Positions 12,563 to 35,765 of a DNA stretch of 64,000 bases are shown one piece after another. A program made the translations under genes and the position numbers. Location: assembly GCA_947494995.1 (NCBI GenBank), contig CANLWY010000001.1, positions 310,001 through 374,000 of the forward strand, given 5' to 3'. The notes below the pieces were generated by a model. It saw only the letters and a program-made list of their open reading frames with translations. It was not told the origin of the DNA and did not search any database. The DNA is from an uncultured Campylobacterales bacterium. Its GTDB lineage: Bacteria; Campylobacterota; Campylobacteria; Campylobacterales; Arcobacteraceae. The stretch's first letter is position 1; each line of letters opens with the position of its first letter.

Positions 12563-13522
12563 TTGGATATCAAAAAAGTATTAGTTATATCGTATTCTCA
12601 AACGGGACAGTTAACAAAAGTTAGTGACTCTGTATTATCATCATTAAATAAAGATAGTAAAATTGACGTAATCTATAAAGAGATTAAACCTAAGAAGGTA
12701 TATCCTTTTCCTTGGGATTTTATGACATTTATGGATTGTTTTCCTGAATCAATATATTTAGATCCTCCAGAAATTGAAGAGATTGAAGATGATGACAATG
12801 ACTACGATTTAGTGATTTTACCTTATCAAGTTTGGTTCTTATCTCCTGCTTTACCAATTACAGCTTTTATGAAAAGCGATTATGCAAAAAGAAAATTAAA
12901 AGGTAAACCTGTAATTACTCTGATTGCTTGCAGAAACATGTGGGTAATGGCACAAGAGAAGATGAAGTCTATGTTAGATGATGTAGAAGCAAAATTAATT
13001 GATAATATAGTTTTAATAGACCAAGGGAACTCTTTTGCAACTTTTATTACAACTCCAAGATGGATGCTTACTGGTAAAAAAGACTCTTTATGGGGAGTTT
13101 TTCCAGAAGCTGGCGTTTCATCACAAGATATAAAAGATGCAAGCAGATTTGGAGAAGCTATTAGATTTGCTTTAAAAAATGACTTAGAGAAAGAAGGGAA
13201 TTCTTTATGTCATGGATTAAAAGCTGTTGAGGTTGATGAGAAACTAATAAAAAGTGAACAAATAGCAACAAAGAGTTTTACTATTTGGGGTAAGCTAATT
13301 AGAAAAGTAGGTAAGCAAGGTGAGCCAAAAAGAAAGCCTATTGTAATGCTTTATGTGGTGTTCTTACTTCTAATAATTTTAACTATAGTACCTATAAATA
13401 TGTTAATTCAAACAATACTTAGAAAAGTAAATAAAGAAAAAGTACTAAAACAAAAAGAAATATTTGAAACACCTTCAGGTAGAGGGGATGAAAGAATGAA
13501 GGAATTTTTAAAAGATGACTAG
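12563..13522 (+). CDS. darA: DarA-like dialkylresorcinol-forming enzyme (flavodoxin-like, cyclisation/aromatisation partner)
   Basis: The N-terminal half has a flavodoxin-like beginning (VLVISYSQTGQL) and the conserved stretches KPKKVYPFPWDF and YQVWFLSPALP that mark the DarA/StlC family. Residues about 265-285 form one hydrophobic helix, so the protein is probably membrane-attached. In DarA/DarB systems, DarB joins two beta-ketoacyl chains and DarA completes the aromatic dialkylresorcinol ring. The start is TTG. The gene overlaps darB by 8 bases and leads a four-gene plus-strand operon. It is assigned by motif and by its neighbour. Confidence 0.85.
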   Translation: MDIKKVLVISYSQTGQLTKVSDSVLSSLNKDSKIDVIYKEIKPKKVYPFPWDFMTFMDCFPESIYLDPPEIEEIEDDDNDYDLVILPYQVWFLSPALPITAFMKSDYAKRKLKGKPVITLIACRNMWVMAQEKMKSMLDDVEAKLIDNIVLIDQGNSFATFITTPRWMLTGKKDSLWGVFPEAGVSSQDIKDASRFGEAIRFALKNDLEKEGNSLCHGLKAVEVDEKLIKSEQIATKSFTIWGKLIRKVGKQGEPKRKPIVMLYVVFLLLIILTIVPINMLIQTILRKVNKEKVLKQKEIFETPSGRGDERMKEFLKDD

Positions 13523-14651
13523 TGTTTATATAAACAATATACAAAAGTATTTACCAAATAATCCTGTTACAAACGATGAAATAGAAGATTATTTAGGTTA
13601 TATTGGTGGAAAAAAATCAAAAGCAAAAAAAATTGTATTAAGAAGTAATGGAATTAAATCTAGACATTATGTTTTAGAAAAGGGAACTCAAAAAGCTCTT
13701 TTTTCTAATGCACAAATTACGGCTCATGCAATTAAAAAATTAGAGAATGAAAACTTTAGCTTAGAAGATATTGAGTGTCTTTCTTGCGGAACTACTACCG
13801 CTGATCAAATAATGCCAAATCATACTCTTATGGTGCAAGGAGAGTTAGGTTTAACAGAAATTGAAACATTAAGTGCAGCTGGGATTTGTTTAAGTGGTAT
13901 AAATGCTTTAAAATATGCATACTATGGGATTAAAGCAGGAGAGCTTAAAAATGTAATAACAACTGGTTCAGAAGTTGTATCACCTACACTTAGTGCAAAA
14001 AATTTTGAAAAAGAGTCTGATTATAGAGCTGTTGAACAAAACCCTGGAATTGCCTTTGAAAAAGATTTCTTAAGATGGATGTTATCAGATGGTGCAGGAG
14101 CTATGCTTTTACAAAATAAACCAAATAAAGAAGGACTATCTTTAAAAATTGATTGGATAGATATTTTATCTTATGCTGGAGAGATGCCAACTTGTATGTA
14201 TAGTGGTTGTGAAGTAAATGCTGATGAAGTTAGAGGATGGAGAACCTTTACACAAGATGAAGTAATGGAAAAATCACTTCTTACAATTGCTCAAGATGTG
14301 AAACTTTTAAATGAAAATATCATTGAGTATACAGTTACAAAACCTATTGAGAAAATTACTAAAAAAAGAGATTTAAAAGAAGAAGAGATTTCATACTTCC
14401 TTCCTCACTACTCTTCAACATTTTTTAGAGAAAAAGTGTACGAAGGTATGAAGAAAGGTGGTTTAGAAATACCTTTTGAAAAATGGTTTACAAATTTAAC
14501 AAAATATGGAAATACAGGAGCTGCATCAATTTATATTATGTTAGAAGAGCTTTTTAATTCAGGAGATTTAAAAAAGGGTGAAAAAATCCTTTGTTATATC
14601 CCTGAAAGTGGAAGGTTCTCAACCTCATTTATGATGCTTGAAGTAGTGTAA
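13515..14651 (+). CDS. darB: DarB-like ketosynthase III (dialkylresorcinol synthase)
   Basis: This is a KAS III/thiolase-fold enzyme with the Cys-His-Asn triad visible: Cys125 in SAAGICLSG, His298 in FLPHYSS, and Asn333 in KYGNTGAAS. The 378-residue length suits DarB/StlD, which condenses a beta-ketoacyl thioester with a second acyl chain to give a cyclohexanedione that becomes a dialkylresorcinol. Overlap with darA and the TAATG junction with the next gene point to translational coupling. The acyl chains cannot be read from sequence. Confidence 0.88.
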   Translation: MTSVYINNIQKYLPNNPVTNDEIEDYLGYIGGKKSKAKKIVLRSNGIKSRHYVLEKGTQKALFSNAQITAHAIKKLENENFSLEDIECLSCGTTTADQIMPNHTLMVQGELGLTEIETLSAAGICLSGINALKYAYYGIKAGELKNVITTGSEVVSPTLSAKNFEKESDYRAVEQNPGIAFEKDFLRWMLSDGAGAMLLQNKPNKEGLSLKIDWIDILSYAGEMPTCMYSGCEVNADEVRGWRTFTQDEVMEKSLLTIAQDVKLLNENIIEYTVTKPIEKITKKRDLKEEEISYFLPHYSSTFFREKVYEGMKKGGLEIPFEKWFTNLTKYGNTGAASIYIMLEELFNSGDLKKGEKILCYIPESGRFSTSFMMLEVV

Positions 14652-15046
14652 TGGATAAAATTGAAGTACCTCAAGAAGAGAATAAAACCCTAGATGGCAT
14701 CAAAAAAGTTATGTATGCCAAAGATGAAGAGGGTGAGTTTCAAAAAGTAAATTATGGTAGTTCCGTAGAAGAGTTTGCAACTCAAACTGCTGTAGAAGAG
14801 TATGAAGTTCTAAAACAAGAGAGTTTAGAAAATATCAAAAAAGAGTTATCTTCTCCAATTGAGTATTTTATGTATGAAAATAGAATGGATTTACCAACCC
14901 TTGCAAGTGTTGTAGGAATGTTTCAATTTAGAGTAAAAAGACATTTAAGAATGGATGTTTTTAAAAAAATGAATGATAAATTGTTATCAAAATATGTCCA
15001 AGCTTTTAATATAAAACTAGAGGATTTAAAGGAGTTTAAAATATGA
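14651..15046 (+). CDS. Small protein of the dialkylresorcinol operon, unknown
   Basis: The N-terminal half is acidic and loosely ordered. The C-terminal 60 residues (from YFMYENRMDLPTLAS) are helical, with a helix-turn-helix-like pattern (LPTLASVVGMFQFRVKRHL) and a basic stretch. It has no signal peptide, catalytic motif or pantetheine site. It starts inside the darB stop (TAATG) and its own stop overlaps the next start (ATGA), so it is made together with DarB and the acyltransferase. It may be a scaffold or a regulator; neither is proven. Confidence 0.6.
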   Translation: MDKIEVPQEENKTLDGIKKVMYAKDEEGEFQKVNYGSSVEEFATQTAVEEYEVLKQESLENIKKELSSPIEYFMYENRMDLPTLASVVGMFQFRVKRHLRMDVFKKMNDKLLSKYVQAFNIKLEDLKEFKI

Positions 15047-16032
15047 GTAAAGAGTTTGAACATGCTCAATTTGCACATTGTGAGAGTGGAGTTATGTCTA
15101 CTTTGTTATCTCATTATGGATTAAAAATTAGTGAACCAATGGCTTTTGGAGTTACTAGCTCTTTATCTTTTGTTTTTATTCCTTTAGTAAAAATTAACAA
15201 TATGCCTTTAATTGCATATAGAGATTTACCAAAAAATATTATAAATAAAATATCTAAGGTTTTAGGTATTTCTATGTATAAAAAAAGTTACAAAAGCCCT
15301 CTTGAAGCAAATAAAGAACTTAGTACTTTTGTATCAGATGGACAGCTTGTAGGACTTCAAACTTCTGTTTTTTATCTACCATATTTTCCAAAAGATATGA
15401 GATTTCATTTTAATGCTCATAATCTTTTAGTTTATGGAAAAGAAGGAAATGAGTATAAAATCTCAGACCCCGTTTTTGAAGAAGCTGTTTTATGTAATGA
15501 AGATGAATTAACAAAGGCTAGATTTGCAAAAGGGGTATTTGCTCCAAAAGGTTTTTTATATTATCCACAAAATATTCCACAAGATATTGATTTTGCTAAA
15601 GTTATTAAAAAGTCAATTATCAAAAATGCAAAATCAATGTTAACTCCTTTTCCTTATGCTGGGGTAAGAGGAATGAAAACTTTAGCTAAAAAAATCTCAA
15701 AATTTGATTCAAAAACTGACTCGAGATATTTAAAAAACTATTTAACTCATATTGTAAGAATGCAAGAAGAAATTGGAACTGGTGGTGGAGGTTTTAGATT
15801 TTTATATGCTGCATTTTTAGAAGAAGCACAAAATTATGAGCTTAATAAAGAGCTTTTAAAAGAAGCCTCGCAACTTCTTGTAAAGTCTGGAAATACTTTA
15901 AGAGAGTTTGCTTTATATTGTGTTGAATCTAGTAAAAAAATTGAAAAGTTCGATGCAAATAAAATATCTGAAAAATTACTTGAAGCCGCTTCATATGAAG
16001 AACAGGCTTTTAAATTATTAAAAAAAATCTAA
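15043..16032 (+). CDS. BtrH-like acyltransferase (DUF4872 type)
   Basis: The N-terminal domain fits the BtrH fold, a papain/C39-like acyltransferase: Cys13 in AHCESGVMS, His126 in NAHNLLVYG and Asp142 in YKISDPVF. The C-terminal part resembles DUF4872. BtrH of butirosin biosynthesis moves an ACP-bound acyl group onto an acceptor. In this operon the obvious acceptor is a dialkylresorcinol hydroxyl and the donor an ACP-bound polyene acid, which would form the flexirubin ester. That role is inference. It ends at a strong terminator and closes the dar operon. Confidence 0.78.
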   Translation: MSKEFEHAQFAHCESGVMSTLLSHYGLKISEPMAFGVTSSLSFVFIPLVKINNMPLIAYRDLPKNIINKISKVLGISMYKKSYKSPLEANKELSTFVSDGQLVGLQTSVFYLPYFPKDMRFHFNAHNLLVYGKEGNEYKISDPVFEEAVLCNEDELTKARFAKGVFAPKGFLYYPQNIPQDIDFAKVIKKSIIKNAKSMLTPFPYAGVRGMKTLAKKISKFDSKTDSRYLKNYLTHIVRMQEEIGTGGGGFRFLYAAFLEEAQNYELNKELLKEASQLLVKSGNTLREFALYCVESSKKIEKFDANKISEKLLEAASYEEQAFKLLKKI

Positions 16033-16056: not shown

Positions 16057-16067
16057 CTATTTTTAAA

Positions 16068-16853
16068 CTATTGAATAGAAAAGTCAATCTCTTCTTCTAG
16101 TTGTTTAATCCATATATTATAATTGTTATGAATATTATAATGTTCATCTGCTCCTAGCTTTTCACTTGTTATATAAGTAATACTATATTTTTCTAAGTCA
16201 TAATCAATTCTAACTATTGCAGTATGAACTCTTCTTACTATTTTTGCTAGTATAAAACCATCTTTTTGTTTACTCATTACCCAGTTAACATTTTGTCCCG
16301 CTTTAAAGATTTTTTCTTCTAATTCTTTTAAAGAGGTATAAGTAGTATTGATTTTTTTATTTATAACATTTTGAATAGGTTTATATTTTTGATTTGAAGC
16401 TGTTAAGGGGTTATTTTTATGCTTATTTGCCAAAAGCTCTGCTTTTTCTAACTGGGGTGTCATTTTAAGAGTTGTAAGCCTTGCATTTATTTGATTTTCT
16501 AGATTTTTAACCCAACCATTATAGTTTTTATGAATACTATTTTCAGCCTTATTATAGTTTAGGTTATGAGCTTCTAATAGATTTATTGAATAAGAGTTTT
16601 CATTGAAGGCAATTTTTACCTTTGCAATATGGTCTCTTATAACTAGTTTACCAATAATAGTATTCTTGTTTGTTTGTTTCATATTCCATCCAAGAAACTT
16701 TCCTGATTCAATAATAGAATTATAAACTGATTGATTTTTAGGTTTCTGTACAAACTTTTTTGTTGGAACATTGTAAACTTTATTTATTCCACATCCATTA
16801 GTTAATAAAATAATGAAAGTTAAGATGAAAAGATTTTTTGTAATTTTATACAT
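16068..16853 (-). CDS. Lipoprotein with two IHxNYNxW repeat domains
   Basis: A lipobox (LLTNGC, Cys21) is followed by two copies of one domain of about 85 residues, roughly 40-130 and 170-261. Each ends in an IHKNYNGW or IHNNYNIW motif plus a helix (NLENQI, QLEEEI). The shared scheme is a GW near the start, then R-H-x-A-x-V, then alternating strands, then the IH-x-NYN-x-W-helix end. The lipoprotein at 11513 carries one copy. It lies between the dar operon and the aryl polyene operon on the minus strand, so an envelope role connected with the pigment is possible but unproven. Confidence 0.72.
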   Translation of the reverse strand: MYKITKNLFILTFIILLTNGCGINKVYNVPTKKFVQKPKNQSVYNSIIESGKFLGWNMKQTNKNTIIGKLVIRDHIAKVKIAFNENSYSINLLEAHNLNYNKAENSIHKNYNGWVKNLENQINARLTTLKMTPQLEKAELLANKHKNNPLTASNQKYKPIQNVINKKINTTYTSLKELEEKIFKAGQNVNWVMSKQKDGFILAKIVRRVHTAIVRIDYDLEKYSITYITSEKLGADEHYNIHNNYNIWIKQLEEEIDFSIQ

Positions 16854-16926
16854 TTTTTTCCTTTTTGATGATATTGTTTATAATATCAAAAATAATTATA
16901 AAATATACTTATTGAAAGAAAACTAT

Positions 16927-16953
16927 AATAGAACTTATTTTGTAAGTTCTATT
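16927..16953 (-). terminator. Terminator at the end of the aryl polyene minus-strand operon
   Basis: A perfect 11-bp stem (AATAGAACTTA and its complement) with a 5-nt loop overlaps the stop codon of the last gene (16935). The T-tract is weak. Confidence 0.55.
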
Positions 16954-17765
16954 ACTATTATGTTTTGTTTATCATCTTTTGCAATATAAAGATGAGAACC
17001 TTCGTATTGTATTAAATTTAGTAGATGTAGAGCGCCCTCTGTTGCAAAGAACTCTTCTTCTTTGATAATCTTTTTAGAATCAATTTTTGATGTGATATTT
17101 TCATCTATTGATGCAAATTGATTTAATGCAATTTTATCATATGAATTTGAAAGAATTTTATTCAAATCATCATATGAGTTTAGCTCTAAGATATTTGTTA
17201 TTTTAGCAAGTGAGTTTTCTTTTTCTTTATTTATATAAAACCAACAACTCCCATCTTTTGATTCTACTTCTTTTGCAAAACTTAAGTAGTTTTCAAAGTT
17301 TTTTATATCATTTAAAGACTCATCAACTCCACCAACTAAAATATCTTCAACTTCTTTTTGTTCTAAATCGAAACATGCAAGTTGTAAAGCTTTTTCAAAA
17401 GAAAGGTATCTTGAAGTGATTAAAGTGTTTTTCCCTTTTGCATTTAATGCTTGTGATACATAAAAGCTTACATTGTTACTATTAATGTTTAAAAAGTCAA
17501 AAGGCATTACAATATGATCTTCATGGCTTACTGTATCCATAAGTCCATAAACATCTATTATAGGTCCATATTCACTTGCTACATAGATTCCATTATTAGA
17601 GCTTAGTTTTATATCTTTTGTTGCGTTAAGGGCTCCTAGTACTGCTAAGACGTTGAACTTACTTGATCTTCTTAAGTTTATTTTAGAAAGCTCTTTTAGG
17701 CTTTTTTTATACTCTTTTATATCTTTAGATGAATTAATAAGTCTATTTGTTGAGTGAATATACAT
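16935..17765 (-). CDS. Ketosynthase-like chain-length-factor partner
   Basis: This 276-residue protein resembles a ketosynthase N-terminal half (ASEYGPIIDVYG, then FLNINSNNVSFYVSQAL), but it lacks the active-site Cys-Thr-Ser-Ser and both His motifs. It follows the full ketosynthase at 17767 by one base, the arrangement of a KS with a non-catalytic chain-length partner. By analogy with the ApeO-ApeC pair it would form a heterodimer and help set polyene length. It is the last gene of the 14-gene operon. Confidence 0.7.
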   Translation of the reverse strand: MYIHSTNRLINSSKDIKEYKKSLKELSKINLRRSSKFNVLAVLGALNATKDIKLSSNNGIYVASEYGPIIDVYGLMDTVSHEDHIVMPFDFLNINSNNVSFYVSQALNAKGKNTLITSRYLSFEKALQLACFDLEQKEVEDILVGGVDESLNDIKNFENYLSFAKEVESKDGSCWFYINKEKENSLAKITNILELNSYDDLNKILSNSYDKIALNQFASIDENITSKIDSKKIIKEEEFFATEGALHLLNLIQYEGSHLYIAKDDKQNIIVIELTK

Positions 17766-17766
17766 A

Positions 17767-18915: not shown

Positions 18916-18917
18916 AG

Positions 18918-19184
18918 CTACTCCGGTTGAATATGGTCAGCTAAAGTATTAATAGATGCCATAATTTTTCTAAGCTTTTTACTATCTGTCGCGTCAATTC
19001 CATATTTTTTATGAAGTGCCATAGATATTTGTAAAGCATCCATAGAGTCTAGTTCTAATCTTGTATCTGAACCAAAAAGTACTTCATTGTCATCTATTTC
19101 ATGCGCTTCAATATCCCTATCACACTCTTCTATTATTAGTTCTTTTAATTCTTGTTTTAATTTTTCGTCTTGCGAACCTAGCAA
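18918..19184 (-). CDS. Acyl carrier protein (aryl polyene, first)
   Basis: The 88-residue acidic protein has the phosphopantetheine site LELDSMDALQ (Ser47). It carries the growing chain for the ketosynthase, reductase and dehydratases. The start is TTG with GAGGAG upstream; no ATG is available. No phosphopantetheinyl transferase gene is seen in the cluster, so activation must rely on one encoded elsewhere. Confidence 0.88.
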   Translation of the reverse strand: MLGSQDEKLKQELKELIIEECDRDIEAHEIDDNEVLFGSDTRLELDSMDALQISMALHKKYGIDATDSKKLRKIMASINTLADHIQPE

Positions 19185-19185
19185 T

Positions 19186-20346
19186 TTAACTCCTCTTTTT
19201 TAGTAAAATATACGCTAAAATCAAACAGATTATAGCAAAAATAAATAGTTTATACACATATGTAGAGATGTCTGTAAAGTCACCACCTCTTACAAAAACC
19301 TCTAAAAAGCTTTCTAATCCCCATGCCATTGGCGAGTATTCTGTAATATCTTGCATAAATTGCGGCATAACAAATTTAGGTACCATTATTCCACCAAGTG
19401 CTGCAAGAATTATATTTGAAACTCCACCAATTGTAGTTGCTTCTTCTGTTGTTTTACTTACATTTGCAATAAATAAAGCAAAACATATAGAGGCTATACT
19501 AACACTTGAAGATATGAGGAAGATTAAGAAATAGTTCCCTGCTATTTCAAGTGAATCTCCACCTAGAAGAGGTACTAAATATATGCCAACTAGAATCATA
19601 AAAATAACTTGTATTTGATTGATAAAATAGTAAGGTATAATCTTACCTATTAAAATTGGAAATAAAGAGACATTTATACTTCTAATTCTATCAATGGTTC
19701 CAAAGGTTTTTTCATTTATAAAAGTGTTTGAAATTGGAATGAGAATAAAAAACATAGAAAATACAAGCCAAGCTGGAACACTTTGTTGTACTGAGGTTGG
19801 AGTGACTTTAAACTCTTCATTTTTATAAATAAATTCACTTTTGATTTTTGATTCAAAATCTAAAACTTCTTTTGTTTTAATTTTTTGTTGAATTAATAAG
19901 TCTTCAAGTATTATCTTTGAACTAGCCCCAGAAATTAATTTTTTTAAAAGCTCAATTTTTTGTGCAGAAATATCAGGTCTTGAAAAGATTTCTAGCTTGA
20001 AGTTCTTATCATTTAGTTTAATTCTTTCAATAAAATTTCTTTGAATATCAATTACAAAATCGTAATTTTCTTTATATAGCTGTTCTTTTTTATTTTTTAC
20101 TTTTATAAATTTTGATTCAAATAAAGCATTTTTATTTATCTCTTGGCTTAATATTTTTAGAGTCTTATTATTTTTAGAACTAGAAATAGCAACTTTTAAA
20201 GGAGTATCGATAGTATTTGAATAGCTATTTTTAAGTGCAAGTGACATGATTAAAATAAAAATTACAGGCATAATAAACAGAACCATTAAAGCATGTAAAT
20301 CTCTAAAGATAAGTGTGAACTCTTTTTTTAGTAAATATTTAAACAT
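19186..20346 (-). CDS. ABC-2 type exporter permease
   Basis: One membrane segment near residues 20-40 is followed by a large soluble domain (about 45-195) and then five hydrophobic segments (about 195-380), the ABC-2 layout also seen in YbhS/YbhR-type exporters. The region before the last segment carries PMAWGLESFLEVFVRGG, a conserved stretch of this family. It pairs with the ATPase directly upstream (1-base overlap). It may export a lipid or pigment intermediate; the substrate is inferred only from context. Confidence 0.82.
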   Translation of the reverse strand: MFKYLLKKEFTLIFRDLHALMVLFIMPVIFILIMSLALKNSYSNTIDTPLKVAISSSKNNKTLKILSQEINKNALFESKFIKVKNKKEQLYKENYDFVIDIQRNFIERIKLNDKNFKLEIFSRPDISAQKIELLKKLISGASSKIILEDLLIQQKIKTKEVLDFESKIKSEFIYKNEEFKVTPTSVQQSVPAWLVFSMFFILIPISNTFINEKTFGTIDRIRSINVSLFPILIGKIIPYYFINQIQVIFMILVGIYLVPLLGGDSLEIAGNYFLIFLISSSVSIASICFALFIANVSKTTEEATTIGGVSNIILAALGGIMVPKFVMPQFMQDITEYSPMAWGLESFLEVFVRGGDFTDISTYVYKLFIFAIICLILAYILLKKRS

Positions 20347-25566: not shown

Positions 25567-26268
25567 TTATCGAACCATTGCTCCACTAATATTTAAAACC
25601 TCTCCACTTACATAAGTAGCATCATTTCCAATAAAATATGCACATTTTGCTACTTCTTGGGGTTTTCCAAATCTATTTAGTGGAATAGCTTTTTTAAGCT
25701 CTTTTGCATTTGGAATATTCTCAATCATTTCTGATTCAATGATTCCAGGAGCTATTGCATTTGCTCTAATGTTAAATTTTCCAAGCTCAATTGAAAGTGT
25801 TTTTGTAAAAGCTATTACTCCACCTTTTGAAGCTGAGTAGTTAGCTTGTCCAGCATTTCCACCAATTCCAGAAATGGAAGCTACATTTACAATACTTCCT
25901 TTTTTATTCATCATCATAGCTTTTGAGATAGTTTTAGTTACATAATACATTCCAGATAGATTAGTATTGATAACATCTTCCCACTCTTCATCACTCATGA
26001 AGAAAAATAGGTTATCTTTGATAATTCCAGCATTGTTAATTAAAACATCAACACTTAAATCTTCTAAAGCACTTCTAATTGACTCTTTATCTTGCATATT
26101 AAAAGTGATTAATTCACCCTTTTCAATTGAGTCTAAAATTTCTTGGGCTTTTTCTTTATTGCTGTTATAGTGAACATAAACATAGTAACCATTTTTGGCA
26201 TACTCTTTTACGATTGCTTCACCAATTGAACCAGTGGCTCCTGTTACTAATACTTTTTTATCTTTCAT
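25567..26268 (-). CDS. 3-ketoacyl-ACP reductase (FabG/ApeQ-like)
   Basis: This is a short-chain dehydrogenase of 233 residues with the nucleotide site TGATGSIG (9-16), NNAG, the catalytic Ser (VASISG) and YxxxK (YSASKGG). The C-terminal end is typical of FabG. In each elongation round it reduces the beta-keto group before the two hotdog dehydratases remove water to make the conjugated double bond. It lies 6 bases from the membrane protein and 9 bases after the ammonia-lyase stop. Confidence 0.9.
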   Translation of the reverse strand: MKDKKVLVTGATGSIGEAIVKEYAKNGYYVYVHYNSNKEKAQEILDSIEKGELITFNMQDKESIRSALEDLSVDVLINNAGIIKDNLFFFMSDEEWEDVINTNLSGMYYVTKTISKAMMMNKKGSIVNVASISGIGGNAGQANYSASKGGVIAFTKTLSIELGKFNIRANAIAPGIIESEMIENIPNAKELKKAIPLNRFGKPQEVAKCAYFIGNDATYVSGEVLNISGAMVR

Positions 26269-26277
26269 TTTAACTCT

Positions 26278-27798: not shown

Positions 27799-28661
27799 TT
27801 GTCCTCCCAAAAGTCATAAAAATTAAACCACTGCAGGGGATGTTGTTTTAACGTTTGCGATAAAACTTGAACATACTCTTCCATAGCAATTTCTATAGCT
27901 TCTTCTTCCTTTAAATTTTTATTTATTTGAATTTTTTTGTAATGCATTTCATAGCTTCTTTTTTCTTTTAATACTACAAAAAGTGCAATAATTGGTTTAT
28001 TTGTCTTATATGCAATAATAAATGGATTTTTATTAAAGTTTGCATCTTTTTCAAAGAATTTCATTTTCTTTAAATACTTATCACTAATAGCTCTATCTCC
28101 CATAAGGGCAACACTTTCGTTTGCTAAAAGTGCATTTGCTATAGAAATAGATGTGGCAATATCACCTCTTGATAAGTCAATAATTTTTACATTCTTTTCA
28201 TTTTTTTTATCAATTAATTGTTCGAACTCACTGGCATTTTTTATCATTGCCTCATTCATTACAATATTGATTTTTACATTATCATCTTTGAAGTAATTAC
28301 TAGCTGTTGCCCAACCACCAAAGTGGTTTGATAATAAAATAGAACCGTTTTTAAGTTCTGCTAAAAGTTCAGCTCGGTTATAGTTTGAGAACTTATAAAT
28401 CTCTGGATTTGCCTTTGAAATAAATCTATCAGAGGTAGCTAATGCATAATTAAATAGATGAGTGAAAAACTTTTTATTTGAAAACTCTTCTCCAATATTT
28501 TTATAGTACTTTTTTAAAGAAATTCTTACATTTGTTGCAAATAAAAAGTAATAAAGAACAACAAAATATAAAGAGAAATAAACAGAGTTATAACCAAAAG
28601 TTTTGTAAAACTTATATAGAGTTTTAACTACTGCTCCTCCAACTCTTTGTTTTGCTGCCAT
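27795..28661 (-). CDS. LpxL/HtrB-family acyltransferase (ApeD-like)
   Basis: An N-terminal membrane segment (about 28-45) is followed by the lysophospholipid acyltransferase core. The catalytic pattern is SNHFGGWATAS, in place of the usual HFGNWE of lipid A enzymes, followed by VALMGDRAIS. It would add an acyl chain to a lipid anchor at the cytoplasmic face of the inner membrane. It starts inside the glycosyltransferase stop (TAATG) and overlaps the ammonia-lyase by 4 bases. Confidence 0.8.
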   Translation of the reverse strand: MAAKQRVGGAVVKTLYKFYKTFGYNSVYFSLYFVVLYYFLFATNVRISLKKYYKNIGEEFSNKKFFTHLFNYALATSDRFISKANPEIYKFSNYNRAELLAELKNGSILLSNHFGGWATASNYFKDDNVKINIVMNEAMIKNASEFEQLIDKKNEKNVKIIDLSRGDIATSISIANALLANESVALMGDRAISDKYLKKMKFFEKDANFNKNPFIIAYKTNKPIIALFVVLKEKRSYEMHYKKIQINKNLKEEEAIEIAMEEYVQVLSQTLKQHPLQWFNFYDFWEDK

Positions 28662-29392
28662 TAAAAAATACCCTTTAGTAAAAGTATCTTTTGAAAAAAT
28701 AGTTTTAAATGAAGTAAGGTAATATTTATTGTGTCATTATAGTTATCAAAGTGACTAACTCTCTCTTCGGGACTTGGGTAATAACACTCAATTATTGTAT
28801 CGCTTATATTTTTATGCTTCCAGTAGTGTTTTACTAATACTTCTGCTTCAAAATTAAATCTTCTTGTTTTTATATTTAAATCTAAAATAGATACGGGATA
28901 TAATCTAAAGCCAGTTAGTGAGTCATTTATTTTATAACCACTATTTAAACTAATCCAGAAATTATGAAAAGCTCGTCCTACTTTTGATTTTGTAGGAACA
29001 TTCTCAATTTCAAAGTTTCTTGCACCCATTACTATTTGGTTTTCACTATTTATACACTCAATAAGTTTTTTTATTTCTGAGGCAAGATGTTGTCCATCTC
29101 CATCCATACTTACAAAATAGTTATAGCCTAACTCTTTTGCTTTTTTGGCTCCCGTTAGGATAGCTTGACCTTTTCCAAGATTTTGCTCGTGTCTTAAGAT
29201 AGTTACATTTTCATTTTCTTCAAGTAAAGATGAAACCTTTGTATCAGAACCATCATCTACTACTATTACTTTATAGTTGTGATTTAAAATATCTTCAATA
29301 ACCTTTGAAATAGTCTTAGGGTTATTATATGTTGGAACGACGATAATTACATTAGGCTGTGACAATTGTAAACTCACTGCATTTTTTATCAT
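28661..29392 (-). CDS. Family 2 glycosyltransferase (ApeJ-like)
   Basis: This is a GT-A fold enzyme with VVPTYNNPKTI, VVDDGSD and the metal-binding DxD in SMDGDGQH, like dolichyl-phosphate mannose synthases. It probably adds a sugar to the lipid anchor or product. The ATG at 29392 puts the first 14 codons inside the dehydratase gene (41-base overlap). GTG at 29377 is another possible start, and no strong ribosome site decides between them. Confidence 0.85.
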   Translation of the reverse strand: MIKNAVSLQLSQPNVIIVVPTYNNPKTISKVIEDILNHNYKVIVVDDGSDTKVSSLLEENENVTILRHEQNLGKGQAILTGAKKAKELGYNYFVSMDGDGQHLASEIKKLIECINSENQIVMGARNFEIENVPTKSKVGRAFHNFWISLNSGYKINDSLTGFRLYPVSILDLNIKTRRFNFEAEVLVKHYWKHKNISDTIIECYYPSPEERVSHFDNYNDTINITLLHLKLFFQKILLLKGIF

Positions 29393-29672
29393 CTTTTTTT
29401 GTTACAACATTTATTGAAGACTCTTTTATTTTAATTAAAAAATTTACTTCATCCTCAGGCAAGATAGGTTGAAGAAATTTTGCTTTTTTTACCTCTATAA
29501 CTTTTAGTGATAATTCTTGAGCAACAATATCTATTTGTAAAAACCCTGGAAGTAGACTATTTGTAGGAAAGTGTGCTTGAAAAACTTCATGATCTTTTTT
29601 AGAGAAGGTAACTTTAAGCTCGACAAAATCGTCACTTTGTGTAATAATCTGTGAAAAATATAAATTATTCAA
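29352..29672 (-). CDS. Hotdog-fold 3-hydroxyacyl-ACP dehydratase (ApeI-like)
   Basis: The 106-residue single hotdog domain has HFPTNSLLPGFLQID, the FabZ-like helix with its conserved His and Pro-Gly. It would dehydrate the 3-hydroxyacyl-ACP made by the ketoreductase. The start is TTG, with AAGG on the minus strand about 10 bases before. It is the first gene of the minus-strand operon, facing the halogenase gene across a divergent promoter region. Confidence 0.72.
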   Translation of the reverse strand: MNNLYFSQIITQSDDFVELKVTFSKKDHEVFQAHFPTNSLLPGFLQIDIVAQELSLKVIEVKKAKFLQPILPEDEVNFLIKIKESSINVVTKKDDKKCSEFTIVTA

Positions 29673-29736: not shown

Positions 29737-29776
29737 AACAAAAAATTATTTGGCAGAGAAAATTTTGGAGGACTTA

Positions 29777-30994
29777 ATGGAAGAAACTTGTGATGTTTTA
29801 GTTATTGGAGGAGGACCCAGTGGTTCAGTTGCAGCATGCAAACTTATAAAAGCAGGGTTTAGTGTAACAATTTTAGAAAAACTTGAGTTTCCAAGGTTCG
29901 TAATTGGGGAGTCTTTACTTCCAAGGTGTAATGCAATTTTAGATAAAAATGGTTTAATTGATTTAATTGAAAAACAAAATTATATGATGAAACCAGGGGC
30001 TATTTTTATTGATGAAAAAAAACAAGAAGAAGAGATAGATTTTAGAAATAATCTTGGTCAAAAATGGGGAACAAGTTTTCAAGTAAAAAGAGAAGAATTT
30101 GATAATGTTTTACTTAAAGAAGCAAAAAGATTAGGTGCAGATGTAAGACATAAATATGAAGTAACAGCTTATGACAATGATGAAAATATTGTTACTGCAA
30201 AAGATGAAAATGGACAGCAAAAAGTTTTTAAGGCTAGATTTGTTTTAGATGCTTCAGGGTATGGGAGAGTTCTTCCAAAACTATTAGATTTAGATATTCC
30301 TTCAGATTTAAAATTAAGAAATGCAATTTTTACAAGAGTAAAAGGTGAAAAAAGAAGAGAAGAAGATAAAGAAGGTTTTATTGATATTGTAATTCATGAT
30401 GATAATAAAGCTTGGCTTTGGGTAATTCCTTTTAGTGATGGAACAACTTCAGTTGGAGTTGTTTGTGAAGAATCGTACTTTAAAGATACAGGTCTATCAA
30501 GAGAAGAGTTTTTAGATAAAGTATTTGATGAACATAAGTATTTAAAAGAGAAGTTTGCAAATGCACAAAAATTAGTTCCAGTAGGTATCATTGATGGTTA
30601 CTCAGCAGCTATTAAAACTATGCATGGAAAAGGCTTTGCATTAAGTGGAAATGCAACAGAGTTCTTAGATCCAGTATTCTCTTCAGGAGTAACACTTGCT
30701 TTAGAATCTTCAGATAGAGTAGGGGATTTAATTATCAAAGAGTTAAATGGTGAAAAAGTTGATTGGCAAAAAGATTATGAAGATTATATGATGATTGGAA
30801 TTAATGTATTTAGAGAGTTTGTATATGCTTGGTATGAAGGAAAATTAAGAAAGATTTTCTATGCTCCAAATAAGGCTGAACAAATTAAACAATCAGTTGC
30901 TTCAATTCTTTCAGGTTATGTTTGGGATGAAAAAAACTATTTTGTAAAGAATTCAAAAGAGAGGATTAATGCTTTAGTATCAATGATTGAATAA
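29777..30994 (+). CDS. Flavin-dependent halogenase-like enzyme
   Basis: FAD site GGGPSG (residues 11-16), GESLLPR (44-50) and AWLWVIP (about 212-218), the counterpart of the halogenase GxWxWxIP signature with Ala for the first Gly. A Lys in KPGAIF (about 72) aligns loosely with the catalytic lysine of phenolic halogenases. It could halogenate or hydroxylate the aryl head; xanthomonadin clusters contain a related gene. The ATG at 29777 is chosen because GGAGGA precedes it by 4 bases; the upstream TTG at 29750 has no ribosome site. It leads the plus-strand aryl polyene operon. Confidence 0.78.
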   Translation: MEETCDVLVIGGGPSGSVAACKLIKAGFSVTILEKLEFPRFVIGESLLPRCNAILDKNGLIDLIEKQNYMMKPGAIFIDEKKQEEEIDFRNNLGQKWGTSFQVKREEFDNVLLKEAKRLGADVRHKYEVTAYDNDENIVTAKDENGQQKVFKARFVLDASGYGRVLPKLLDLDIPSDLKLRNAIFTRVKGEKRREEDKEGFIDIVIHDDNKAWLWVIPFSDGTTSVGVVCEESYFKDTGLSREEFLDKVFDEHKYLKEKFANAQKLVPVGIIDGYSAAIKTMHGKGFALSGNATEFLDPVFSSGVTLALESSDRVGDLIIKELNGEKVDWQKDYEDYMMIGINVFREFVYAWYEGKLRKIFYAPNKAEQIKQSVASILSGYVWDEKNYFVKNSKERINALVSMIE

Positions 30995-31070: not shown

Positions 31071-31325
31071 ATGGCTATTTCAAGTAGTGAATTCAAACAA
31101 GTTTTAATTGATGGATTAAAGTTAGAAGATATTGAAGTTGATGAGATTGAAGATACAGATGCACTTTTTGGGGACGAAGGTTTAGGTTTAGATTCTGTTG
31201 ACTCAATTGAGTTAGTGTTAATTATTGAAAAAGAGTATGGTGTAAAGATTCAAAACCCAGAGCAGTATAATGAAATTTTTGCTTCGGTAGAGAACTTATT
31301 AAAATATATTAATGACAATAAATAA
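31071..31325 (+). CDS. Acyl carrier protein (aryl polyene, second)
   Basis: The 84-residue acidic protein has the phosphopantetheine site GLGLDSVDSIEL (Ser42). It overlaps the following ketosynthase by 14 bases. Its sequence differs clearly from the ACP at 18918, so the two carriers may serve different steps, for example starter loading and elongation. AGAGGAA lies before the ATG. Confidence 0.9.
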   Translation: MAISSSEFKQVLIDGLKLEDIEVDEIEDTDALFGDEGLGLDSVDSIELVLIIEKEYGVKIQNPEQYNEIFASVENLLKYINDNK

Positions 31326-32433
31326 AAAAGCTTACATTAATAACTATGAAGCAGTAAGTTGTGCAGGTTTAGATACTACACAACTTTTTGCTTCAATTTG
31401 TGAAAAAAAAGACTGCATTTCAATTGACAATCATTATGTTCAAGAGCGAGAAGTAGCAATTGGGAAAATTAACTCTGATGAAGAGTTTAATACTCTACTT
31501 TTAAATACTTGCTCCAAAGTGTTAAAACAATCAAATCTTGAAAACTATGATGATACCTTACTTATAGTTGGTTCTTCTGTTGGTGGAATGAATCAAACAG
31601 AAGAGATTTTTTTTAAAGATAAATCTTATGAGAATATAGATTATAAAAAACATCCAATTGATGCAATAGCTTACTTATTAAAACAAAAGTTTTCTTTTTA
31701 TGATGATATCTCTTTTTCAACTGCTTGTACTTCAAGTGCAAATGCCTTAGGCTATGCAAAAGAGGTAATAAATAAAGGTATTTATAAAAATGTTTTAGTT
31801 GTAGGTGTTGATGCTTTATCTTATACTACTGTTTGTGGTTTCTCCGCACTTAGTGTTCTTTCATCAAAACCATGTACTCCCTTTGAAAAAGAAAGAGAGG
31901 GAATGAATGTAGCAGAAGCGATTGCTGTGTTACTTATTCAGGATGAAAAGCAAGAGAATTGTATAGAGCTTTGTGGGGCAGGATATAGCTCAGATGCCCA
32001 CCATATGACTCAACCCCACCCTGAGGGTGAGGGTGCATTAGAAGCTATGCAAAATGCAATTACTAATGCAAATATAAACAAAGACTTAATCTCTTATATC
32101 AATGCCCATGGAACTGGAACAATGGCAAATGATAGTTCAGAGCTAAATGCTATTTCAAAACTTTTTACAAATACAAGTCCTTATGTAAGTTCGACAAAAT
32201 CTTTTACAGGACATACTTTAGGAGCAGCTGGAGCTATTGAAGCTATTATTTCATGTATGGCTTTACAAGAGCAAATTATTCCTCCTTCTAAAGATATTCA
32301 AAACCCTGAGAGAGAAGATATCTCTTTTTCAAATGAACCAATAAAACAAGAAATAAAATATATTCTTTCTAACTCTTTTGCTTTTGGTGGAAATAATACA
32401 AGTATTCTTTTAGGAGTATGCGGTGAAGATTAA
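31312..32433 (+). CDS. Beta-ketoacyl-ACP synthase of the aryl polyene pathway (second KS)
   Basis: The triad is complete: Cys139 in FSTACTSSANAL, His266 in NAHGTGTM and His301 in SFTGHTLGAAG. This is FabF-type elongation chemistry. Together with the ACP before it and the partner protein after it, this repeats the ACP-KS-partner module of the opposite operon. One of the two KS enzymes may prime chain growth and the other extend it, as proposed for ApeR and ApeO; which is which cannot be read here. Confidence 0.9.
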   Translation: MTINKKAYINNYEAVSCAGLDTTQLFASICEKKDCISIDNHYVQEREVAIGKINSDEEFNTLLLNTCSKVLKQSNLENYDDTLLIVGSSVGGMNQTEEIFFKDKSYENIDYKKHPIDAIAYLLKQKFSFYDDISFSTACTSSANALGYAKEVINKGIYKNVLVVGVDALSYTTVCGFSALSVLSSKPCTPFEKEREGMNVAEAIAVLLIQDEKQENCIELCGAGYSSDAHHMTQPHPEGEGALEAMQNAITNANINKDLISYINAHGTGTMANDSSELNAISKLFTNTSPYVSSTKSFTGHTLGAAGAIEAIISCMALQEQIIPPSKDIQNPEREDISFSNEPIKQEIKYILSNSFAFGGNNTSILLGVCGED

Positions 32434-33061
32434 TTTAGAAATTGTCAGTAGTGCATATTTACTGGGGGAAACTTTAGTAGAAGATTTAAATACAAAAGCA
32501 CTGGTACCTAAAATGGTATTTAGAAGAAGATTAACGAGGGCTTCAAAACTAGCTGTTGAATTAATAGATAAGCTTGCTTTTGAACAAGGAAGAATTATGT
32601 ATGGAAGTGCATATGGTGAACTTCCAGCAACGGCTAATATTTTAAATGCAATTTTAAATAAAGAAGGTATTTCTCCAACAGATTTTCAAAACTCTGTTTA
32701 TAATACTCCTGTTTCTTATACTTCTATTTTAAAGAAAAACCAAAGTGAAATAATGACTATCTCTTGTGGGGATAATACTTCAAATAGACTTTTAAAAATG
32801 GGTGCCATTAAAGCTTTAGATGGAGATGAAATTCTTTTACTTGTAACTGAGACTATGAATATTGAAAATATAGAGCAAGTAAACACTTGTATTGATTTTT
32901 TAGAGTGTGCTGTTGCACTTAAAGTAAAACTTACAAAAGAAGAAGCAAGTTTAAATCTAAAGAATGAAGAGTTAAAGTGTGCAAACTCAGTTAAAGAGCT
33001 TTTACAAATAGCAAAGGCTTGTAAAGAGAATCAAAAAAATATTATAGAAGTACAAATATGA
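32423..33061 (+). CDS. Ketosynthase-like chain-length factor (ApeC-like)
   Basis: The 212-residue protein resembles the short beta-ketoacyl synthase domain found in aryl polyene clusters (PF13723 type). Recognisable stretches are MYGSAYGELPAT, FQNSVYNTPVSYTSI and IMTISCGDNTSN. It has no CTSS active-site motif and no His motifs, so it is expected to partner the upstream KS, which it overlaps by 11 bases. The next start (ATGA) overlaps its stop. Confidence 0.75.
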   Translation: MKINLEIVSSAYLLGETLVEDLNTKALVPKMVFRRRLTRASKLAVELIDKLAFEQGRIMYGSAYGELPATANILNAILNKEGISPTDFQNSVYNTPVSYTSILKKNQSEIMTISCGDNTSNRLLKMGAIKALDGDEILLLVTETMNIENIEQVNTCIDFLECAVALKVKLTKEEASLNLKNEELKCANSVKELLQIAKACKENQKNIIEVQI

Positions 33062-33411
33062 ATATTCCCCACCAAAAACCAATTAAATATGCCCAAGAGC
33101 TTTTAGAAGTAAATGAAAACATTGCAAAAGTTAGATGCGAGTTTGATAAAACACCAACTCTTCCTATGTTTTTTGAAGCAGCAGCGCAAAGTTCTGCTGG
33201 TTTTTCACAAGATAGCGAGGCTAAGGTTGGATTTCTAGTTTCAGTTAAAGAAGTAAAACTTTTAAATGAAGCTGCTAAGCTTGAGTATATTATTCAAGTT
33301 GAAAAGAAAGTAGAGTTTGGTGCAATTTGTGAATTCTCTTTTGAAGTATTTAATAAAGAGCAAGACACAAGTTTTGCAAGTGGAGTATTAACTGTTATGA
33401 TTCAAGAGTAA
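33058..33411 (+). CDS. Hotdog-fold dehydratase (ApeP-like)
   Basis: A FabA/FabZ-like single hotdog of 117 residues: IPHQKP at the start, LPMFFEAAAQSSAGF for the central helix with conserved Glu, then KVGFLVSVKEVKL. It is the second dehydratase of the cluster. Aryl polyene systems usually have two (ApeI and ApeP), acting as a pair or on different chain lengths. The His position is offset compared with FabZ, so the exact active site is uncertain. Confidence 0.7.
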   Translation: MNIPHQKPIKYAQELLEVNENIAKVRCEFDKTPTLPMFFEAAAQSSAGFSQDSEAKVGFLVSVKEVKLLNEAAKLEYIIQVEKKVEFGAICEFSFEVFNKEQDTSFASGVLTVMIQE

Positions 33412-34679
33412 TGAAAAAAGTTCTATTTCTTCTTACTCTTACTTTTTGCTTTTTAAATGCACAATATATTAAAGAACCAATCTTTAATGAAGCCTCTTAT
33501 GTAAAAACCTTTGGAAATCCAAAAAATGAAGCTATTGTTTTTGTTCATGGATTAGGTGATGAAGCTTCAGATATTTGGAAAACAAGTGTTGAAGCTTTAA
33601 AAAAAGATTACTTCATTATGATATTTGATTTACCAGGTTTTGGAAAGTCAGATAAATCTAATCAGCTTTATTCACCTTCAAAATATGCAAACTTTATAAA
33701 TACACTTATTGATAATTTTGTAGACAAATCTTTTCACTTAGTAGGGCATTCTATGGGAGCAAGCATCTCTTTATTATATACTTCTTTATATGATTTAAGA
33801 GTAAAAAGTCTAACCTTAATAGATGCCGCTGCAATTTTAGAAAAAAATACCTATTCTCAGTTTGTCTTAAAATCAAAGGTAAATAATAGTGCAGTATCTG
33901 GTATTGTTTCTAAACTTCCAGGAATGATGAATGAGTTATTGCCTTTTGAAGTAGATACTTTAGTAGATACTAGACTAACTAGAAAGTTTATACTACGTTC
34001 AAACCCTGGAACAATTGCAGCAATGGCACTAGCAAAAGAGGATTTTTCCTATATTCCAAGAGAGTTAAAAAACCCAACATTAGTTATTTGGGGTAAAGAA
34101 GACAAAGTAGCTCCACTTAGAACAGGACAAGTTTTACACTATTTATTGCCAAACTCAAAATTTGAAATTTTTGAAAATACTGCTCATGTTCCTATGAAAG
34201 ATGATTTTAATAGATATATAGACTCTTTAAAAAAACATCTAAAGATTAAAAACTATAAAAAAGCAAAAAAGAAACTCTTTAATAAAAAAGTTATAAAAGA
34301 AATAAAAAGAGATAAAAATAGAAAGCTAAGTGGTTATTTTAAAAAGTTAGTAGTTAAAGATAGTAAAAATATAGAGATTATTGATTCAGTTATAGAAGAA
34401 CTTATAATAATAAATTCAGAAGTTAAAATTTTAAATAGTCAACTTTTATTAGCAGAGGGCTCTTTAATTAAAGAATCAAATATAGAAATAACTGCATCAA
34501 GTTTAGATATCAAAAAAGCAATAGATGTTAGTAATTCTAATATAAATTTAGCAGGATTAAATATTAAAAGTAAAAATGAAGTATTTAAAAATATTGATAA
34601 AGAGAATTCAGCAAAAATAATATTTTCTCTTTGTCTTTTAAATGAGAAAAATATCCATGGCGTAAAAATATACAAATAG
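33411..34679 (+). CDS. Exported alpha/beta hydrolase fused to a beta-repeat tail
   Basis: A signal peptide (residues 1-17) places it in the periplasm. The alpha/beta hydrolase domain (about 20-280) has nucleophile Ser114 in VGHSMGAS, Asp231 in WGKEDKV and His259 in NTAHVPM. After a very basic linker (280-315), about 100 residues show short repeating strands (NIEIIDSVIEEL, VKILNSQLLLAEG, NIEITASSLDI), like the coils of a right-handed beta-helix. It may cleave or transfer an ester or thioester in the periplasm. No hotdog thioesterase (ApeK type) is seen in the cluster, so it may fill a similar need. Confidence 0.75.
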   Translation: MKKVLFLLTLTFCFLNAQYIKEPIFNEASYVKTFGNPKNEAIVFVHGLGDEASDIWKTSVEALKKDYFIMIFDLPGFGKSDKSNQLYSPSKYANFINTLIDNFVDKSFHLVGHSMGASISLLYTSLYDLRVKSLTLIDAAAILEKNTYSQFVLKSKVNNSAVSGIVSKLPGMMNELLPFEVDTLVDTRLTRKFILRSNPGTIAAMALAKEDFSYIPRELKNPTLVIWGKEDKVAPLRTGQVLHYLLPNSKFEIFENTAHVPMKDDFNRYIDSLKKHLKIKNYKKAKKKLFNKKVIKEIKRDKNRKLSGYFKKLVVKDSKNIEIIDSVIEELIIINSEVKILNSQLLLAEGSLIKESNIEITASSLDIKKAIDVSNSNINLAGLNIKSKNEVFKNIDKENSAKIIFSLCLLNEKNIHGVKIYK

Positions 34680-34703
34680 GACGTTAATTTAGTAGGAATG
34701 TAA

Positions 34704-35765
34704 ATGAATAAATTTTTTAAAAATAATGATAGAATAAGTGCTATTGAAGCACAGTTTGAAGCACAAAAGATTGCTTTTGCTCCAATAATTTTTCAAGTTG
34801 TAAGAACTATGAGAGACTTAGGTATATTAGAAATAATATCTCAAAATAAAGAGGGTGTTTCTATTGAGAAGATATCAAAACAATCAAGGGTTTCAAAGTA
34901 TGGAGTTCAAGTATTACTTGAAACAGCATTAAGTGCTGATGTAGTAAAAGTAGAAGATGAACTTTGGAACCTTACAAAAGTAGGTTATTTTTTATATAGT
35001 GATAAAATGACTAATATTAATATGGATTATAACCATCATGTAAACTATTTAGGTTTATTTAATTTAGAAAAATCTATAAAAAATGAAAAGGCAGAGGGTT
35101 TAGAAGTTTTTGGAGATTGGGATACAATATATCCGGCACTATCTTCTCTTCCTAAAGATGCAAAAAATAGTTGGTTTAATTTTGATCATTTTTATTCAGA
35201 TTCTGGTTTTTTAAAAGCAATAGATTATTTAAAAACACTAAATCCAAAATCAATATTAGATATTGGTGGAAACACTGGAAAGTTTGCTTTTTTACTTGAA
35301 AAAGAGAGTGAAAATATAGATATTACAATAATGGACTTGCCTCAGCAAATTAAAACAGTAAAACAAAATATTTATGAAAGAGATTCAAAAAGAGTTTCAA
35401 CTATTGAAGCAAATGTTTTGTTAGAGGAAACAAAAATTCCTAAAGGCTTTGATATTATTTGGATGAGTCAATTTTTAGACTGTTTTAAAGAGGAACAAAT
35501 AGTTAGATTATTGAAAAAAATAAAAGCATCAATGGATGAGAATACACAAGTTTGTATAATGGAACCTTTTTGGGATAGGCAAAATAATGAAACAGCAGCA
35601 TTTTGTGTTATAAATACCTCTCCATATTTTACAGCAATGGCAAATGGTTATAGCAAAATGTTTAAATATAGTGATTTTGAAAAATTTTTAACTCAAGCGG
35701 GTTTTGAAGTTTTAGAAATAATTGATGATATAGGTTTATGTCAAACAATAATAAGATGTAAATGA
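34704..35765 (+). CDS. SAM-dependent methyltransferase with winged-helix dimer domain
   Basis: The N-terminal part (about 25-95) is the winged-helix dimerisation domain of O-methyltransferase-type enzymes (VSIEKISKQSRVSKYGVQVLLETAL). The Rossmann part has the SAM loop ILDIGGNTGKFAF (about 185-197), then MDLPQQI. In flexirubin and xanthomonadin clusters a methyltransferase decorates the aryl head (C- or O-methylation); this gene ends the operon and fits that. The classic catalytic His is not obvious, leaving O- or C-methylation open. Confidence 0.82.
   Translation: MNKFFKNNDRISAIEAQFEAQKIAFAPIIFQVVRTMRDLGILEIISQNKEGVSIEKISKQSRVSKYGVQVLLETALSADVVKVEDELWNLTKVGYFLYSDKMTNINMDYNHHVNYLGLFNLEKSIKNEKAEGLEVFGDWDTIYPALSSLPKDAKNSWFNFDHFYSDSGFLKAIDYLKTLNPKSILDIGGNTGKFAFLLEKESENIDITIMDLPQQIKTVKQNIYERDSKRVSTIEANVLLEETKIPKGFDIIWMSQFLDCFKEEQIVRLLKKIKASMDENTQVCIMEPFWDRQNNETAAFCVINTSPYFTAMANGYSKMFKYSDFEKFLTQAGFEVLEIIDDIGLCQTIIRCK

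Follow-up and report, generated by a model that had tools for sequence, protein, structure and literature searches.

Here we describe a gene cluster for a predicted pigment in a window of 64,000 nucleotides (the whole stretch of DNA analysed) from an uncultured Campylobacterales bacterium of the Arcobacteraceae (assembly GCA_947494995.1, contig CANLWY010000001.1, positions 310,001 to 374,000). The interval 12563-35765 of this window contains 26 genes arranged as three runs. The first run, on the plus strand, comprises darA, darB, darG and darH; the second, on the minus strand, has 15 genes from a lipoprotein gene to a dehydratase gene; the third, on the plus strand, has seven genes from a halogenase-like gene to a methyltransferase gene and is followed by the housekeeping genes cdsA and dxr. 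The interval consists of one set of genes for an aryl polyene (APE) and one set of nine genes for a dialkylresorcinol (DAR), the latter made up of darA, darB, darG, darH and the genes for CLF1, the ketosynthase (KS) KS1, the acyl carrier protein (ACP) ACP1, an ABC permease and an ABC ATPase.

The genes were named by Pfam and NCBIfam profile searches of the window proteins, and open reading frames (ORFs) were found for the named genes. Of the gene set that a preceding sequence-only reading had claimed, most families were confirmed, while DarA, the MMPL-like protein, the LolA-like protein and the second dehydratase rest on fold, topology or position. Three genes were absent from that reading: the halogenase-like gene (29750-30994), the methyltransferase gene (34704-35765) and a lipoprotein gene just outside the span (11513-12460). 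The features are as follows.

11513..12460, plus strand: lipoprotein lpA, upstream of darA and outside the interval; LxxGC lipobox-like motif
12563..13522, plus: darA, putative DAR aromatase with flavodoxin fold; PDB 2mwm at E 7.5e-5, position beside darB
13515..14651, plus: darB, StlD/DarB ketosynthase; NF005293, 599 bits (cut-off 450); Cys125, His298, Asn333 by motif
14651..15046, plus: darG-family DAR biosynthesis protein, in the place of Azoarcus darD; NF053536, 142 bits (cut-off 70)
15043..16032, plus: darH, BtrH-like acyltransferase (darE of Azoarcus); NF053550, 476 bits (cut-off 300); BtrH_N, DUF4872
16068..16853, minus: lipoprotein lpB, related to lpA by sequence match; recurs in relatives
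16935..17765, minus: CLF1, KS-like partner, DAR module (place of darK); PF00109, 22 bits
17767..18915, minus: KS1, ketosynthase, DAR module (place of darJ); Pfam, NCBIfam
18918..19184, minus: ACP1, acyl carrier protein, DAR module (place of darC); PF00550, DS motif
19186..20346, minus: ABC-2 permease, DAR module (place of darI); PF12698
20346..21209, minus: ABC ATPase, DAR module (place of darF); PF00005
21247..22461, minus: AMP-dependent ligase, predicted aryl acid activation; PF00501
22451..24571, minus: MMPL/RND-like exporter; topology (hydropathy) only
24555..25028, minus: LolA-like periplasmic carrier; position only
25021..25560, minus: small membrane protein; hydropathy, VC0807 family at 24 bits (cut-off 65)
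25567..26268, minus: ketoreductase (SDR); FlxB as top NCBIfam match, 251 bits (cut-off 340)
26278..27810, minus: aromatic ammonia-lyase, most likely for tyrosine; PF00221 at E 2.7e-143, ASG motif 144-146, Gln426
27795..28661, minus: Lip_A-type acyltransferase; Pfam Lip_A_acyltrans
28661..29392, minus: family 2 glycosyltransferase (GT2); Pfam
29352..29672, minus: ApeI/FabA-like dehydratase; Pfam
29750..30994, plus: FAD-dependent halogenase-like protein, variable accessory; PF04820, WxWxIP pattern
31071..31325, plus: ACP2, acyl carrier protein, polyene set; Pfam
31312..32433, plus: KS2, ketosynthase, polyene set; Pfam, NCBIfam
32423..33061, plus: CLF2, KS-like partner (Ketoacyl-synt_2); PF13723
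33058..33411, plus: second dehydratase-like protein; position only
33411..34679, plus: alpha/beta hydrolase, variable accessory; PF00561, signal-peptide-like start, C-terminal extension
34704..35765, plus: FlxJ-like methyltransferase (O-methyltransferase in Pfam); NF053543, 464 bits (cut-off 560)

For the MMPL-like protein Pfam gave no match even at E 10, and its hydropathy is MMPL/RND-like. No convincing family was found in Pfam up to E 10 for the LolA-like and the second dehydratase-like proteins, which are named by position and synteny. DarA had no match in Pfam or NCBIfam at 0.001 (Pfam Flavodoxin_4 reached just 0.033) and contains one hydrophobic segment according to hydropathy (residues 260-278). 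Its gene adjoins darB in most of the 80 named DarH loci (the best 80 of 574 confirmed), and the putative identity of DarA rests mainly on this place. In the alpha/beta hydrolase, approximately 140 residues C-terminal of the hydrolase match form repetitive, strand-like sequence. A scan for promoters and terminators gave a result no better than that for shuffled sequences. Elsewhere in the window, a group of seven tRNA genes is located at 43388-44172.

Boundaries of the dialkylresorcinol module

The module boundaries were determined by tblastn searches of the window proteins against genome stretches of relatives. The dar-bearing set comprised 18 clusters, 15 of them from the 27 dar-bearing genomes of the family sample described below, together with those of G221, G353 and G360. 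The APE-only set comprised five loci (G057, G087, G086, G031 and G051) out of eight genomes which have the ammonia-lyase gene without dar; G066 was omitted as too fragmented, and G038 and G040 as their genes are scattered. The stretches of G360, G013 and G051 were incomplete.

All nine DAR genes were found in each of the 18 dar-bearing clusters. In the five APE-only loci, darA, darB, darG, darH and the genes for CLF1, KS1, ACP1 and the permease gave no match, and the ATPase gave one weak match (32%, in G057), while the genes for the ligase, reductase, ammonia-lyase, acyltransferase, GT2, ACP2, KS2 and CLF2 were present in all five. Since KS1, CLF1, ACP1 and the exporter are present or absent with the dar genes as a block, they belong to the DAR half. 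The sequence-only reading had counted two aryl polyene operons here, but the genes at 16935-21209 (KS1, CLF1, ACP1 and the ABC pair) follow dar, with 18/18 against 0/5. For the same reason the ABC exporter is not an addition to the cluster, as had been thought, but a member of the DAR set; a permease gene lies near 69 of the best 80 named DarH loci, and the dar cluster of Azoarcus has one too. The hydrolase, also taken as a distinguishing addition, turned out to be a variable accessory present in 14/18 dar-bearing clusters and 2/5 APE-only loci.

In three of the APE-only genomes (G087, G086, G031) lipoprotein genes and an NFACT gene directly follow the ligase gene, with no DAR gene between them. 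In the window the same lipoprotein and NFACT genes border the DAR block on the side away from the ligase gene. This site between the AMP ligase and lipoprotein/NFACT genes is occupied by the DAR module in many Arcobacteraceae, and in relatives the module is missing from this same site.

Whole-genome searches for DarH, DarB and KS1 agree with these boundaries. At E<=1e-60, KS1 was matched in 26 of the 27 family genomes with dar and in none of the others, a count which misses the diverged copy of G090 (39%). According to motif patterns, the Cys motif and the two His motifs are intact in KS1 and KS2; in CLF1 none of the KS catalytic patterns tried was found, and CLF2 is without both His patterns.

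Distribution in the family, the phylum and beyond

Our family sample comprised 104 Arcobacteraceae genomes and our phylum sample 397 Campylobacterota genomes. DarH was found in 27/104 family genomes (9/20 genera) and in 22/397 phylum genomes (13/68 genera), so the Campylobacterota setting assumed from the sequence was borne out. DarB above its cut-off is present in the identical set of 27 family genomes; at E<=0.001 the DarB search matched 103/104 genomes via FabH-type synthases, and only the 27 above the cut-off were counted. The polyene ammonia-lyase is present in 35/104 genomes, counted at >=63% identity together with a 90-residue fragment (76%) in G095, and with seven genomes with matches of 27-31% dropped. 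It was found in 26/27 dar genomes vs 9/77 others (Fisher p 7.5e-16, uncorrected for relatedness). One of these nine, G095, has darA and a partial darB at a contig end, so that eight genomes are without dar. The polyene KS2 is encoded in all nine, with 52-73% identity. Two genomes considered as carrying dar without a polyene set, G007 and G028, were rejected as such: in G007 the set lies elsewhere, and in G028 approximately 11 kb away.

The cluster is common in Arcobacteraceae, and its order and chromosomal neighbours (NFACT gene, cdsA) are kept in several genera. The genomes G038 and G040 (1.5 Mb) harbour an ammonia-lyase/ketoreductase pair amid housekeeping genes (L156 13419-15630 and L157 301-2512), 79-80% and 58-60% identical to the proteins of the window; the gene for the polyene KS2 lies on a different contig, and no DarH was found. 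The lipoprotein family of lpA and lpB, which has no convincing Pfam match, tracks the polyene cluster: of the 34/104 family genomes that have it, 33 also encode the ammonia-lyase (35 genomes in all). An attempt to derive a function for lpA from its AlphaFold2 model (pTM 0.53) gave PelC/LptE/FlgT-type matches with TM of about 0.3 over the query, and none is claimed.

The 80 named DarH loci, the best 80 of the 574 confirmed, are mostly from Pseudomonadota and Desulfobacterota, with Pseudomonas, Variovorax, Vibrio and others represented, and the same operon is frequent among them. DarG was matched at 79 of these loci, the ATPase at 71, DarB and the permease at 69 each, DarA and ACP1 at 66 each, and KS1 at 61; any match in the fetched flank was counted, so that an unrelated ATPase could count, and contig edges cut some loci short. 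Records of Pseudomonas, Caulobacter and Neisseria show the same convergent arrangement as the window.

A tree of 58 DarH rows (36 of the best 80 named loci and 22 further rows) groups the window with other Arcobacteraceae and the Sulfurospirillum deleyianum group with a branch support of 100/100; other parts of the tree contain branches flagged as long. DarH of two family genomes is identical to that in the records of Arcobacter sp. BM504 and A. cryaerophilus LMG 9065. The Arcobacteraceae genome G090 is placed with Sulfurimonas in a second Campylobacterota group, close to rows of Vibrionaceae and Desulfobulbales. Thus, the phylum seems to contain two or more dar lineages.

It had been expected that a full gene set outside Bacteroidota would be a distinct variant. 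This is not supported, since arcuflavin is known, DarH operons are widespread and a Sulfurospirillum pigment is in print (PMC3949708, PMC3035281). Uniqueness outside Bacteroidota was rejected likewise, with DarH occurring across Campylobacterota, Pseudomonadota and Desulfobacterota and arcuflavin in Azoarcus. The locus is a member of a known, widespread kind, and it is real, coherent and probably functional. For pigments or aryl polyenes of Arcobacteraceae, no paper was found in a non-exhaustive literature search; in PMC10459008, which contains flexirubin and aryl polyene terms, Arcobacter appears only in the reference list.

The predicted pigment and its known relatives

We found the features of a hybrid pigment cluster: the StlD/DarB ketosynthase, DarH, and a polyene KS with partner, ACP, ketoreductase, dehydratase and ligase. 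With darB, darG and darH present, it falls outside the definition of an aryl polyene cluster without DAR. The locus probably makes a yellow-orange pigment of the flexirubin type, most likely an aryl polyene derived from tyrosine and ester-linked to a DAR. This product, already proposed from the sequence, remains the best prediction and is in line with Gln426 of the ammonia-lyase and with FlxB and FlxJ as the top NCBIfam matches (both below cut-off) of ketoreductase and methyltransferase.

Gene content and its conservation, the limits of the modules, co-occurrence and, for DarH, the conserved residues and the predicted fold are results of this analysis; the reactions, their order and the product are modelled on known pathways. 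The ammonia-lyase would produce 4-coumarate, which the AMP ligase would load on a carrier and which KS2/CLF2, the ketoreductase and the two dehydratases would extend to an aryl polyene. Its ring would be decorated by the methyltransferase and, in clusters that have it, by the halogenase-like enzyme. Separately from the polyene, KS1, CLF1 and ACP1 would supply acyl thioesters, to be condensed by DarB and aromatised by DarA to the dialkylresorcinol. DarH would then move the polyenoyl group from its carrier via Cys13 to a DAR hydroxyl, resulting in the ester. The ABC pair could export the DAR part or the ester, and the MMPL-like, LolA-like and lipoprotein components could carry the pigment to the outer membrane.

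The flexirubin clusters of Chitinophaga pinensis and Flavobacterium johnsoniae are described as sharing the ammonia-lyase start, the AMP ligase, the polyene set of KS, ketoreductase and dehydratase, a LolA-like protein, an exporter, a glycosyltransferase, an acyltransferase and darA/darB (PMC3992019). The methyltransferase is FlxJ-like by NCBIfam name, as in flexirubin clusters. However, the equivalog cut-offs of these clusters are not reached here: FlxA scored 360 of 700 bits, FlxB 251 of 340, FlxJ 464 of 560 and the flexirubin DarG 116 of 170. DarB also remained below the cut-off of the narrower model NF053539 (506 of 550 bits).

The convergent arrangement of darABGH and the CLF-KS-ACP-ABC block matches Pseudomonadota loci. 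In Azoarcus sp. BH72, the polyene-DAR hybrid arcuflavin has been described (PMC3949708). According to Table 1 of that paper, its dar cluster shares DarA, DarB, a conserved hypothetical protein, a BtrH-like protein, the ABC ATPase and permease, ACP and KS, and its polyene genes share LolA, exporter, glycosyltransferase, acyltransferase, halogenase and methyltransferase. In contrast to the single locus here, the two arc loci of Azoarcus are described as unlinked, and its starter as 3-hydroxybenzoate from a XanB2-type chorismatase instead of an ammonia-lyase product (PMC3949708). A Pfam scan of the 26 ORFs of the interval revealed no chorismatase-type match. Halogenation is not predicted with confidence, because the halogenase-like gene is present in 9/18 dar-bearing clusters and the Azoarcus pigment is reported as non-brominated despite such a gene (PMC3949708).

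Within the phylum, the genome paper of S. deleyianum attributes its yellow colonies to a "flexirubin-type pigment", citing Zophel et al. 1991 (PMC3035281); it was just this paper that turned up in a literature search for flexirubin and Sulfurospirillum. In the S. deleyianum genome (G221; NrfA identical to PDB 1qdb over 441 aligned residues), nearly the whole cluster is present: 24 of 26 genes tested were found by tblastn (both lipoproteins counted as one), and the ammonia-lyase is 73% identical to that of the window. Only the LolA-like and the halogenase-like genes were missed, and an open frame of 159 codons that looks LolA-like lies in the gap where this gene would be expected. The gene order is partly rearranged compared to the window. 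From this gene content the cluster is likely the genetic basis of the yellow pigment stated for S. deleyianum, although the chemistry behind the 1991 statement first needs checking.

Formation of the predicted ester and alternative readings

Several observations weigh against a flexirubin-type product; they concern the starter, the ester-forming enzyme and the coupling of the two halves. For the starter, the FlxA score mentioned above places this model only fourth in NCBIfam, after BagA/FevW as the best match and two histidine-type models, all below cut-off. Further, motif 1 of the ammonia-lyase is Phe84-His85, which departs from the published rule for tyrosine ammonia-lyases (TAL), His at the first position. 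For motif 2, a figure legend gives Gln in TAL and phenylalanine ammonia-lyases (PAL) and Glu in histidine ammonia-lyases (HAL) (PMC3992019), a rule which separates TAL/PAL from HAL but not TAL from PAL. Gln426 aligns with the Gln of a PAL and with the Glu of a HutH-equivalog from G087. C. pinensis FlxA is reported to break the motif 1 rule too, yet to prefer tyrosine approximately 1000-fold (PMC3992019). Gln426 and this departure of FlxA itself suggest that tyrosine rather than phenylalanine is the likely substrate.

For the ester bond, DarH is the best candidate. Its AlphaFold2 model (pLDDT 85.7), compared by VIA-align 2, matched entries of AziU3, CtaG and CcbD with Z 20.7-23.9 over 291-305 residues (AziU2-U3: Z 23.9, 302 aligned, rmsd 3.9; CtaG: Z 22.7, 295 aligned, rmsd 3.8; CcbD: Z 21.1, 302 aligned, rmsd 4.0), and the next row, at 14.3, belongs to cysteine-peptidase-like domains. 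The predicted fold is thus alike, while identity to these proteins is 10-14% and their acceptors are not known to be resorcinols. To judge by their titles, some of the matched entries are complexes, the partners including p-hydroxybenzoate, a carrier-protein domain and methylthiolincosamide, which suits aryl acyl transfer from a carrier protein by DarH. In 12 sequences Cys13, His126 and Asp142 are invariant, as are His12 and His122. CtaG entries carry variants of C11, H128 and D144, with the same His-Asp spacing of 16. From this conservation and spacing, and without residue-level superposition, we infer that Cys13, His126 and Asp142 form the active site.

It is unlikely, but worth weighing, that the ester is formed by another enzyme, for example the secreted alpha/beta hydrolase or the AMP-ligase-like protein, and that DarH acts elsewhere in DAR assembly. 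In Chitinophaga the ligase-like FlxW has been proposed for this step (PMC3992019), and at some Desulfobacterota loci DarG and DarH were found without DarA and DarB in the fetched flank. DarH thus need not always act on DAR, and such pairs hint at another acceptor. However, the AMP ligase is present in 5/5 APE-only loci, and the hydrolase was not found in 4/18 dar-bearing clusters while two APE-only loci have it; DarH, in contrast, has a predicted acyl-transferring fold with conserved Cys, His and Asp. The DarG-DarH pairs lie at L054, L062, L071, L082, L090, L093, L096, L118 and L126, all in records titled as Desulfobacterota-type or deltaproteobacterial, and part of the flanks stop early at a contig end.

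Elsewhere, free DARs serve as signals or antibiotics. A quite improbable alternative is that polyene and DAR are never joined: GT2 and the Lip_A-type acyltransferase would then help to make an aryl polyene linked to a lipid or sugar, and the ABC pair would export free DAR as a signal or antibiotic. In its favour, both genes are retained in dar-bearing clusters (GT2 in 17/18, the miss being the incompletely fetched G360; acyltransferase in 18/18) and present in 5/5 APE-only loci, and darABGH lie far from the polyene genes in G007. Against a flexirubin-type product there is also G042, whose dar genes lie on two contigs (3.1 and 4.0 kb) and which has neither the polyene ammonia-lyase nor KS2, its KS matches all being weaker. 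Yet G042, with its two short contigs, is the only one of 27 family genomes with dar and without this ammonia-lyase, DarH, a predicted acyltransferase, occurs in the same 27 genomes as DarB, and arcuflavin and flexirubin are described as esters from comparable gene sets (PMC3949708, PMC3992019). For G042 (L165, L166), contamination, missing contigs or a true exception may be considered. Given the retained GT2 and acyltransferase, the cell may in addition produce a lipid-linked polyene. That this strain does not express the cluster, or carries it in a partly degraded form, as the TTG start of the listed darA ORF and several genes without family match could indicate, is very improbable, since the listed genes are open and their order and chromosomal neighbours are kept in several genera, suggesting maintenance.

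Returning to the flexirubin-type ester, we tentatively propose, at somewhat less than even chance, that the nine DAR genes act as a portable cap module. The module would turn a resident aryl polyene into such an ester, would use DarH to form the bond and would bring an ABC exporter of its own. The ester-forming step is testable with one gene, darH.

This kind of cluster is common in the family and found in many others, and such a pigment was already reported from a relative of the same phylum. The locus is taxonomically informative and its novelty modest. The genes are spread through Campylobacterota, an Arcobacter cryaerophilus record included. What is added here is the link between a gene cluster and the old observation in Sulfurospirillum, and natural relatives with APE only or with APE and DAR. 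If the cap module is true, relatives with and without the DAR module at the same site would be naturally capped and uncapped, and they would let the purpose of the DAR half be asked.

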